Shown piece by piece: positions 17,612-21,205 of a stretch of 38,726 nt of DNA. Made by a program: the position numbers and the translations under genes. The DNA comes from a virus, in the IMG/VR virus record IMGVR_UViG_3300047322_000451, positions 1-38,726 of that record; one strand, written 5' to 3'. The notes beneath the pieces were generated by a model. The model saw only the letters and a list, made by a program, of their open reading frames with translations. It made no database searches and was not told where the DNA came from. Positions within the stretch are counted from its first letter, which is position 1; each line of letters begins with the position of its first letter.

Positions 17612-17641
17612 TTGACGAGAATCACGCTTTTCTCGTATGAT
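17612..17641 (+). promoter_or_regulatory. Rightward promoter of the HTH gene
   Basis: TTGACG (17612-17617), 18-base spacer, TATGAT (17636-17641). The start would fall near 17648, about 20 bases before ATG 17669, inside the operator palindromes, so autoregulation is likely. Confidence 0.55.
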
Positions 17642-17665: not shown

Positions 17666-17674
17666 ATAATGCAA
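17646..17674 (-). promoter_or_regulatory. Leftward promoter of the recombination operon
   Basis: Read leftward: TTGCAT (17674-17669), 17-base spacer, TATGAT (17651-17646). It overlaps the palindromes of the switch and would start transcription about 45 bases before the 81-aa gene. The -35 lies over the start codon of the divergent HTH gene. Confidence 0.55.
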
Positions 17675-17995
17675 GCTAAAAATAATTCAGATGCAATAAA
17701 AGCTCTCACACTATGGCTTAAACGAGAAAAAATATCGTTGTATAAGTTCACAAAATTGATAGGGATTGATTATACTGGGGTATGGAAATGGATGAAAGGA
17801 CAGTCACATCCAACGCTAGCTTTTGCTATTATCATAGAGGAAGCAACGAATGGATCCATACCTTGCATTCTATGGAAAGAGAAACCTCAGTTACCCGAAG
17901 AGCAACTTAAAAAAAGCCGTACCAAGAACTCCACAAACCCCAAGAGCCATGATACAAAGAAACACAACAAAAGCAGTCCTAAAGGCAGGAAATGA
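17669..17995 (+). CDS. Cro/CI-like HTH regulator, 108 aa
   Basis: The start is set at ATG 17669 because the in-frame upstream sequence is the promoter/operator region. Residues about 8-65 form an XRE-type helix-turn-helix: LTLWLKREKISLYKFTKL, IGIDYTGVWKWMKGQSHP as the recognition segment, then LAFAIIIEEATNGSIP. After residue 72 the tail is Lys/Ser/Asn-rich and probably disordered. No cleavage or peptidase domain is present, so it is closer to Cro in type than to a LexA-like CI. It probably binds the palindromes in its own leader and controls the leftward operon. Confidence 0.82.
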   Translation: MQAKNNSDAIKALTLWLKREKISLYKFTKLIGIDYTGVWKWMKGQSHPTLAFAIIIEEATNGSIPCILWKEKPQLPEEQLKKSRTKNSTNPKSHDTKKHNKSSPKGRK

Positions 17996-18102
17996 AGTAA
18001 ACCAACACCAGCATTCTTTAAAAACATTTCTCACACAATCCCCCTTACGTTTTGGGTCAAGAAAAACCTATTATTCTCTTTTAGCTGACATTATCAAATC
18101 AT

Positions 18103-18164
18103 ACAACACAAATACCCCGCCACGATAGCGGGGTAGCACACTTGAACAGCATGAATCTGTGCAA
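18103..18164 (-). terminator. Leftward hairpin unit E: stem-loop plus terminator
   Basis: The terminator stem is TACCCCGC (18113-18120) and GCGGGGTA (18128-18135), with TTTGTGTT following in the leftward direction, a weak T-run. To its right a GCACA/TGTGC stem (18136-18164) encloses a 17-base loop containing TTCAT as read leftward. Confidence 0.5.
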
Positions 18165-18188
18165 CTGAAAATGTATAATGAATTGTAT

Positions 18189-18256
18189 AAAAAGAAAAGC
18201 CAGCATTTCTGCTGGCTTTAACTCTGCGTAAACGAAGATCAAGGGAGACCAACGTT
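18189..18256 (-). terminator. Leftward hairpin unit D: strong terminator
   Basis: AAAGCCAGC (18196-18204), loop ATTTCT, GCTGGCTTT (18211-18219); leftward it is followed by TTTTCTTTTT, a strong intrinsic terminator. To the right is a short AACG/CGTT stem whose loop reads CU-rich leftward (GGTCTCCCTTGATCTT). A weak leftward promoter TTAATT-17-TATGCT lies just beyond. Confidence 0.7.
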
Positions 18257-18280
18257 AGCATAACCTTACCATATGACTGA

Positions 18281-18348
18281 ATTAAAAGAAAGAGCGCCAA
18301 TGGAGGAGGCGCTCTCTCTCCAGATAGGAAATGAAGGAAACCTATCTG
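18281..18348 (-). terminator. Leftward hairpin unit C: stem-loop plus terminator
   Basis: AGAGCGCC (18291-18298) and GGCGCTCT (18308-18315), followed leftward by TTCTTTTAATT. Immediately right is a perfect 8-bp stem CAGATAGG (18321-18328)/CCTATCTG (18341-18348) whose leftward loop is TTTCCTTCATTT, pyrimidine-rich. The two together look like a small RNA. Confidence 0.65.
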
Positions 18349-18390
18349 CCACAAAACCAAACTCACTTTAGGAATGTAGGGGATTGAAGT

Positions 18391-18461
18391 AAAGCAAAAA
18401 GGCCCGAGGATTTTAACCCTCAGGCCTACAACAGAATTACAGCCCCGGAAGTTGAGATGAA
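18391..18461 (-). terminator. Leftward hairpin unit B: strong terminator
   Basis: Leftward the RNA would read GGCCTGAGG, loop, CCTCGGGCC (18426-18401, with one G-U pair), then TTTTTGCTTT. The pair is C-A, unpaired, on the other strand, which shows the hairpin works leftward. To the right a CCGG/CCGG element encloses TTTCATCTCAACTT. Confidence 0.7.
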
Positions 18462-18540
18462 ACCGGAAACCATGCTTATATTATCATAGGAAAGTTTTTA
18501 GTCCACGAAAAAGAAGGCTTTAGGTATTGTGATCATACTG

Positions 18541-18604
18541 AAACGAAAAACGCGGCTTGGCGGCCGCGTCTCGTGAGATATAATCTCTGTAGGATATGAA
18601 AGTG
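18541..18604 (-). ncRNA. Leftward hairpin unit A: candidate 60-nt small RNA with promoter and terminator
   Basis: Leftward promoter TTGCAA-17-TATATT (18638-18610) would start near 18604. The RNA begins with a GTAGG-CACTTTCATAT-CCTAC stem-loop (the pairing extends to six bases as TGTAGG/CCTACA). It ends with ACGCGGC (18569-18563), loop CGCCAA, GCCGCGT (18556-18550) and TTTTCGTTT. It is the only unit of the five with a good promoter. It overlaps the start of the rightward leader by about 14 bases. Confidence 0.45.
18557..18584 (+). promoter_or_regulatory. Rightward promoter of the replication operon
   Basis: TTGGCG (18557-18562), 16-base spacer, perfect TATAAT (18579-18584). Expected start near 18591, about 70 bases before ATG 18661. 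The -10 lies in the left arm of an inverted repeat. Confidence 0.6.
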
Positions 18605-18620
18605 CCTACAATATATCTCA
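18574..18620. promoter_or_regulatory. Nested inverted repeat holding two face-to-face -10 boxes
   Basis: Outer arms TGAGATATA (18574-18582) and TATATCTCA (18612-18620); inner arms TGTAGG (18588-18593) and CCTACA (18605-18610). The left arm carries the rightward TATAAT and the right arm the leftward TATATT, so a regulator bound to the repeat could affect both. TTTCGTTTTTT follows at 18624. Confidence 0.7.
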
Positions 18621-18660
18621 ATCTTTCGTTTTTTGCAACAACAGAAAACAGGATTGCGTT

Positions 18661-19629
18661 ATGTCAAAAATATTCACACAACTTCCCGAAGAACTTTTCG
18701 AACACAAACTTTTCCAAGAAATTAAAAACAATGACTGGCGTTGGGGAATTGCAATTATTCTAAGAAGGGCTTCATATATAGACCAGAGAGACTTAAAAAA
18801 AGGCCAAGTTAGAATATCTCTTCGACAGCTTAGCGAGGAAGCAAAAATAACAAAAAAACAAGCTGAAAACCTAATCAGACACCTTTTAGGTATGAATACA
18901 CATAATAAAATCCGCGGCGACATTGCGGCTGGCATGCGGCCGATATTAGGGGGACAGTTAGAGGGACAAGAAAGGGGACAGAAAAAAGGAAGAGAAATAC
19001 CAGTCTATAATATACTACTAAAAGGATTCTATGAAATAGAAGAAATGGAAAAGGGGACAGAAAAGGGGACAGAAAAGGAGACACCAAAGGGGACAGCAAG
19101 GGGACACAAAGGGGACACATCCCCTAGAGAAATCGCGACAGAAGCTAAGAAGCTAGAAGCTATAAAAAATAACCAACCACCTAACGCGACAAAGTCGCGA
19201 ATGGTGGCTGATGCTTTGGAATCAAAAGGATTTAACGAAGACGAGATTCGACAAGTCAAAGCAATGAGGAAATCAACAGAACTGATTCTTCAAGCGCTTC
19301 ATTATATTTTTGCTGACGGCTACGTGATAGAGAAAACTCCAATCCAAGCCTTAAAGTTCGCTATTCTTAACCAGCCATGGACTTGGAAGGTCAATGACCC
19401 TAAGAAAGACCCAAAAGAAGTGATCATGGAATACTTTTCTGATGGGAAAATATACAATGGCTACACCTGCGGTATAAACTCAAAAGGGATCTGGTTCTAC
19501 TCAGGAAATTATACGATAGCAGAATTATCTTTCGATGCACCGCTTTTCAAAGCAAATTTTCAGAAGCTTTGTGAAAAAATAAATATCGATAATCCATTTG
19601 ATAAAACATTTAAATTTAAGGAGGCGTAA
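18661..19629 (+). CDS. Replication initiator / replisome organiser (lambda O-like role), 322 aa
   Basis: Residues 1-80 form a winged-helix type start seen in phage replication proteins: FTQLPEELFEHKLFQEI, AIILRRASYI, KKGQVRISLRQLSEEAKITK and QAENLIRHLL. Residues about 95-150 are low complexity (GTEKGTEKETPKGTARG) because the DNA carries GGGGACA iterons. Residues about 180-322 (ESKGFNEDEIRQVKAMRK, FDKTFKFKEA) are a second domain of unknown fold. As with lambda O, origin repeats inside the initiator gene suggest it binds its own gene to start replication. First gene of the rightward operon. Confidence 0.82.
   Translation: MSKIFTQLPEELFEHKLFQEIKNNDWRWGIAIILRRASYIDQRDLKKGQVRISLRQLSEEAKITKKQAENLIRHLLGMNTHNKIRGDIAAGMRPILGGQLEGQERGQKKGREIPVYNILLKGFYEIEEMEKGTEKGTEKETPKGTARGHKGDTSPREIATEAKKLEAIKNNQPPNATKSRMVADALESKGFNEDEIRQVKAMRKSTELILQALHYIFADGYVIEKTPIQALKFAILNQPWTWKVNDPKKDPKEVIMEYFSDGKIYNGYTCGINSKGIWFYSGNYTIAELSFDAPLFKANFQKLCEKINIDNPFDKTFKFKEA
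18950..19117 (+). other. Candidate replication origin: phased GGGGACA iterons
   Basis: GGGGACA or a one-base variant occurs at 18950, 18962 (variant), 18974, then at 19053, 19065, 19077 (GGAGACA), 19089, 19100 and 19111. Spacing is 12, 12 and then 12, 12, 12, 11, 11 bases, about one helical turn, with an A-rich 70-base stretch between the two groups. Such phased repeats within an initiator gene are typical of iteron origins. A CGCGAC-AAA-GTCGCG palindrome follows at 19185-19199. Confidence 0.65.
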
Positions 19630-20621: not shown

Positions 20622-20835
20622 AAGGGAACGTTATTCTCTTGCCCGCCAGCCCGCTATAAAGACGTTAGTAATACGTACCCACCAGTCGACTTTGAATAGA
20701 GCGACTGAAGCGAAATATGTGAGTTCTTTGGAATTAGATGAAAAGTCTGAAGGGTTGACTTGTACTTGCGATCGTTGTTTGATTGTTAAGGATTACGAAA
20801 ACTTCAAAAAACGGAAATTTGGCGATGCAAGTTAA
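20614..20835 (+). CDS. Small basic protein with half of a zinc ribbon, 73 aa
   Basis: ATG 20614 overlaps the previous stop (ATGGATAG); GTG 20596 is less likely. The N-terminus is basic (MDRRERYSLARQPAIK). Near the end it has CTCDRCLIVKDYENF, which resembles the first knuckle CMRCKVEQSEEEF of the 14461 gene, but the frame stops before a second CxxC. It could be a truncated zinc-ribbon protein or use a partner for metal binding. Confidence 0.68.
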   Translation: MDRRERYSLARQPAIKTLVIRTHQSTLNRATEAKYVSSLELDEKSEGLTCTCDRCLIVKDYENFKKRKFGDAS

Positions 20836-21205
20836 AGTCCCGATCCGTCTAGTCCCCGAATCAAACTCATCCGAGCATTGGACTAAAAAAGCAAAGCGTC
20901 ACAAAATCCAAAAGGTGATTGTCAAAAGCTACCTTACTCGGGAAAAGATGCCGCCGCTTCCTTGCGTTGTTACACTAACTCGCTACTCACCTCGTGAGCT
21001 TGATCGTGCCGATAACCTAGGTTACTCGTTCAAGTGGGTACTTGACCAAGTCTGTGATTGTTTAATACCAGGACTAGCCGCAGGCCGCGCAGACTCAGAT
21101 CCAAGAATACGCGTAGTCTATAAGCAGGAAAAGACTAAAGCTGCCGAGCACTATATCACGATCGAAATTGTCGCCGACGTGCCAAAGAAAGAGATTCAAG
21201 AGTGA
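20825..21205 (+). CDS. rusA: RusA-like Holliday junction resolvase, 126 aa
   Basis: It should cut four-way DNA junctions left by recombination. ATG 20825 (MQVKVPIRLVPESNSSEHW) is preferred over 20783. Family hallmarks: SSEHWTKKAKRHKIQK near the start, then CVVTLTRYSPRELDRADN with the D-x2-D acidic pair, DQVCDCLIPG and ADSDPRIRVVYKQEKTK, the DD-x-I...K pattern. Length fits RusA (about 120). It overlaps the upstream gene by 11 bases and ends the first block of the rightward operon. Confidence 0.82.
   Translation: MQVKVPIRLVPESNSSEHWTKKAKRHKIQKVIVKSYLTREKMPPLPCVVTLTRYSPRELDRADNLGYSFKWVLDQVCDCLIPGLAAGRADSDPRIRVVYKQEKTKAAEHYITIEIVADVPKKEIQE

Follow-up and report, generated by a model that had tools for sequence, protein, structure and literature searches.

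The stretch of DNA analysed here (the window, an entire IMG/VR virus record of 38.7 kb) has the gene content of a temperate-type phage. A leftward block with serine recombinase, helicase, ERF and SSB genes ends at 17625, and further along come rightward packaging and structural genes. Between them lies a small rightward gene (17669–17995) for a repressor-like HTH protein, which matches phrog_35 (transcriptional repressor, E 2.9e-6), has an orthologue of 38% identity in the relative L126 and resembles the regulator of another, L009. The next gene considered here, also rightward (18661–19629), occupies by position the place of a replication initiator. Its product found no direct match in the family search; it is 61% identical to its counterpart in the related contig L170, with a nearly identical start, and the five relatives' proteins tested from the same position match replication-initiation PHROGs, several of them O-like. 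The host search gave a single genome match, a contig in a Bacteroidetes MAG that is possibly misbinned. Further to the right, a conserved gene present in 67 loci (20783–21205, rightward in the window) encodes a product with no Pfam or PHROG family match; its pattern D..DNL....K....D...PG..D.DK.I resembles that of RusA-type resolvases.

The gap between the HTH gene and the putative replication gene is 665 bp long and holds five leftward intrinsic terminators within 18113–18571, every one with its T-run at the left, just where five such hairpins had been placed by the original prediction. From right to left they are designated A (18548–18571), B (18400–18427), C (18287–18319), D (18196–18219) and E (18113–18135), all on the minus strand; the G-U pair claimed for the hairpin of B is present as U-G. 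These five are the majority of the eight leftward terminators found across the window. The gap yielded none in the rightward direction, and dinucleotide shuffles of the same 665 bp yield a mean of 0.02 leftward terminators and a maximum of 1. Compared with one another, the five units have no sequence in common (alignment scores of 24 between adjacent units reflect 12 nt shared by construction), and they are therefore not homologous siblings. A coding explanation was considered and dropped, in agreement with the earlier claim that no reading frame accounts for the structure: the overlapping frames lack family matches, and the sole open frame across the array (18094–18366, minus strand, GTG start) belongs to no Pfam or PHROG family. 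A sequence similarity search of the array against phages and plasmids found nothing, and at the curated threshold Rfam has no match in the window, nor in the loci of seven relatives.

Each terminator is preceded, on the leftward strand, by a stretch that may comprise a promoter and a short RNA body. In unit A (18572–18638), TTGCAA (18638–18633) is followed after 17 bp by TATATT (18615–18610), with a predicted +1 near 18603; the body reads ACUUUCAUAUCCUACAG... and so on. Unit B (18428–18504) has the promoter block GGACTAAAAACTTT..TATG.TAA (18504–18481) ahead of its body. In unit C (18320–18393) the promoter-like site is TTTACT (18393–18388) with TAAAGT (18370–18365), and the body carries an 8-bp hairpin with the loop UUUCCUUCAUUU. 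The sites of unit D (18220–18286; TTTAAT at 18286–18281 and TATGCT at 18262–18257; body with UCUCCCUUGAUCUU) and unit E (18136–18198; TTTTCT at 18198–18193 and TACATT at 18175–18170; body with AUUCAUG) are weak, no better than background. Combined, the five promoter p-values come to about 0.05 on a matrix that approximates E. coli sigma-70 and may not suit the host, so that the promoter model is uncertain.

The second stem-loops, said to be strong in units A and C and weak in the others, are indeed uneven. Against shuffled sequence, that of A is strong (z −4.1) and those of B and E are no better than chance, as claimed; C is only modest (−1.2) and so is D (−1.4). The 5′ arm of the hairpin in A lies upstream of the +1 of the best leftward promoter, so that the hairpin may be absent from the RNA.

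The closest comparison is with L170, a contig that ends 300 bp upstream of its homologue of the 18661 gene and covers units A and B only. What is kept there is the frame of each unit. The promoter of A, TTGCAA-17-TATATT in the window, is TTGCAT-17-TATGAT in L170, and the promoter block of B is common to both. In terminator A all 9 of 9 pairs are kept, four of them by changes on both sides; in terminator B all 10 of 10, two by changes on both sides; none is broken in either. As only two sequences are compared, stem retention is shown, with little statistical weight. The RNA bodies diverge: UUUCAU in unit A becomes UUCCCAU, and the unit B hairpin with the loop UUUCAUCUCAACUU is missing. The requirement in the original prediction that relatives keep both loops and strand asymmetry is thus answered in two ways, the asymmetry being kept and the loops lost. 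Unit A also aligns, through its promoter and first RNA bases, with the first unit of L126 (score 45 versus a shuffled mean of 15). At least A and B would on this evidence be separate leftward transcription units, and in the array promoter and terminator are conserved while the RNA body between them is free to change.

Such units are not peculiar to this phage. A search with the terminase brought together 54 loci that have a structural module in common, and about 15 of the relatives are whole genomes; the typical arrangement is a small regulator gene, then a leftward terminator, then a gene for a protein of 280–350 aa. In a set of 31 gaps assembled by hand, 26 contain at least one leftward terminator (23 contain one and three contain two), a count that is if anything too low, since one member, L152, was possibly read in the wrong orientation. 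The 31 gaps together hold 29 leftward terminators where 1.3 are expected, and four rightward ones where 0.9 are expected. Leftward promoter-like sites precede these terminators (Fisher p 4e-9 versus shuffled sequence; 0.91 for the rightward strand) in a scan from the replication gene to the terminator, made with the same approximate E. coli matrix. A wider automated set, drawn from a search with the RusA-like gene, cruder in its definition of the gap and richer in distant relatives, has leftward terminators in 23 of 65 gaps and rightward ones in four. Promoter and terminator at the same place in relatives, with A and B kept in L170, support the proposal of a leftward multi-unit small-RNA locus.

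Among phages with an HTH regulator like that of the window, two leftward terminators close to the replication gene are seen in L009 and in L126. The stretch from regulator to replication gene in L208 contains three, with small genes in between; no five-unit array was seen among the relatives examined. A regulator family of about 91 aa (MIIRQDF...PPKMF...), one member of which was searched and found no Pfam or PHROG match, adjoins the terminator in eight loci (L088, L080, L084, L087, L096, L098, L102 and L044), its stop codon no more than about 10 nt from the leftward terminator.

One way to understand the array is to set it beside OOP-like control, best known from lambdoid phages. In lambda, the promoter pO is convergent to pR, lowers transcription from pR and affects replication (PMC3985674); the OOP RNA, which terminates at tO, overlaps cII and is able to suppress the activity of CII (PMC5869508). 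The likeness is one of anatomy. In both phages a leftward promoter lies just before the replication initiator and is followed by a short RNA, promoter and RNA being predicted ones in the window, and by an intrinsic terminator; in both the unit is flanked by a small regulator gene on one side and an O-like gene on the other, and faces rightward transcription. The leftward terminator between regulator and replication-initiator genes is found in the window as well as in the 26 of 31 relatives, and a leftward promoter beside the replication gene is indicated, at the level of sequence, by unit A in L170 and by the enrichment among relatives. The differences are also plain: lambda has one unit and the window five; OOP overlaps cII, whereas in the window about 118 bp would separate the end of the RNAs from the regulator gene (18113 versus 17995), so that overlap with the 3′ end of the upstream regulator is absent in the window; and the regulator is a repressor-like HTH protein, which need not be a CII.

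Because position, orientation and anatomy match pO-oop-tO, the reading we prefer, and consider somewhat probable, is that OOP-like leftward units, each a promoter with its terminator, are repeated five times here and would act in cis on transcription from regulator to replication gene. Each unit would consist of a promoter (putative in C, D and E), a variable body of roughly 30–80 nt and an intrinsic terminator, and would yield a short RNA of roughly 55–110 nt. The array would oppose rightward transcription that is assumed to start before the array, at the regulator gene, and to continue through it into the replication gene: leftward initiation may interfere with it, and each RNA would be a perfect antisense match to the leader of the message for the replication gene. 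The outcome would be that expression of the replication gene is tuned and separated from that of the regulator, as in lambda. Action in cis needs no conserved seed, which agrees with bodies that diverge between conserved promoters and terminators. With one such unit at the OOP position in most relatives and five here, the array resembles a control element of known type that has been multiplied. A limited search of the open-access literature found no report of a tandem array at that position, though one may exist. As judged from sequence, a leftward promoter-terminator unit at the OOP place is spread across a large group of uncultured phages, with up to five units in tandem, and the group offers a natural dose series (0, 1, 2 and 5 units) for convergent transcription and antisense control of phage replication. 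The order of preference places this OOP-like cis array first, small RNAs acting in trans second, a terminator barrier third and DNA-level elements last.

The second perspective, which was that of the original prediction, supposes that the RNAs act in trans, a CU-rich or UUCAU segment, placed in each unit within a loop or close to the 5′ end, blocking start regions of phage or host mRNAs. The loop sequences quoted for it are correct. TTCAT occurs five times leftward and never rightward in the gap (shuffle p 0.007), and UUCAU hairpins precede the terminators of four of the five units, as well as one terminator each in L126, L009 and L048, compared with 11 of about 324 terminators elsewhere; the motif was, however, picked after the window had been seen. 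Recurrence in the three relatives leaves room for some role. Strand-specific enrichment of TTTCAT, TCTCCT and CTCCTT, which complement start codons and Shine-Dalgarno sequences, is seen upstream of terminators across the phage group, while their own complements are not enriched. This enrichment arises in part because leftward terminators often directly precede rightward genes, and the hexamers were rejected as proof of anti-ribosome-site RNAs, as many lie opposite real gene starts. When sites with a gene opposite are removed, TTTTTTCAT is still enriched (11 versus 0.4) and Shine-Dalgarno complements only weakly; TTTTTTCAT is absent from the array of the window. Against the proposal stand the altered segment of A and the lost loop of B in L170, and the predicted pairing between unit bodies and start regions of the same phage, which is no better than that of shuffled RNAs; the targeting claim fails its best test, the comparison with L170, and the target prediction suggested for it gave no signal in this phage. 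Targeting by the loops is possible, though not the best-supported reading, and trans-acting RNAs as a whole we regard as unlikely.

Two further known systems may be compared. Listeria LhrC1-5 are homologous copies that share CU-rich target sites, and the sar RNA of P22 prevents translation of the ant message from starting by pairing with it. LhrC resembles the window in that there are several short RNAs, predicted ones here, each ending at a terminator, and in that some loops contain CU-rich segments; LhrC is a poor analogue nonetheless, because its copies are homologous, whereas the five units here share no sequence and their segments change in L170. Conserved CU-rich sites that bind Shine-Dalgarno sequences were found neither in the L170 segments nor against the phage's own start regions. 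With sar the array would share cis-antisense control of a phage regulatory operon; unlike sar, no unit of the window overlaps the start codon of a recognised gene. A related and rather doubtful idea sees in the array a bank of phage small RNAs, each under its own promoter and in an exchangeable cassette, whose targeting segments turn over quickly from one close relative to another as promoters and terminators persist; if true, a phage could hold several different RNA effectors in one array.

A further perspective dispenses with functional RNA: five stacked terminators would merely shield the regulator gene from leftward transcription. No feature is better conserved than the terminators, and many relatives have their single terminator a few bases from the end of the regulator gene. 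One terminator suffices for most relatives, however, and the conserved leftward promoter blocks between terminators (A and B) would be needless in a pure barrier, which makes this explanation quite improbable. That the palindromes are operators or parts of a replication origin, with incidental T-runs, is suggested by the overlap of the unit A palindrome with two sites, the leftward −10 and a rightward promoter-like TATAAT site (18557–18584), and by long palindromes between terminator and replication gene in several relatives. It is very unlikely, as the T-runs are strand-specific in all five units and the stems persist through compensatory changes and not through a constant sequence, like an RNA and unlike a protein-binding site.

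Some observations on the relatives stand apart. The long imperfect palindromes just mentioned (arms of roughly 20 bp; L096 on the reverse strand, L080, L044, L084, L101 and L040) may be operators or origin elements. The 11 sites with TTTTTTCAT 10–50 nt upstream of an intrinsic terminator and no gene opposite (0.4 expected) are L003 5186(+), L130 7392(+), L080 13250(+), L109 72(+), L009 892(+), L083 13972(+), L102 3027(+), L036 613(+), L085 8417(-), L132 3785(+) and L048 2627(-); several fall between convergent operon ends. Within each of two homologous pairs, L003/L130 and L080/L109, the run is one T longer in one member than in the other, so that any frame on the opposite strand would shift; the sites may represent small RNAs of one family, or else conserved 3′ ends. 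Finally, L048 has a four-unit leftward terminator array (2627–2939) about 1 kb upstream of its terminase gene, which is taken as a separate case because its relative L057 has no array there; the last unit shares TTTTTTCAT.GAACATCCTTGG with the second unit of L132.
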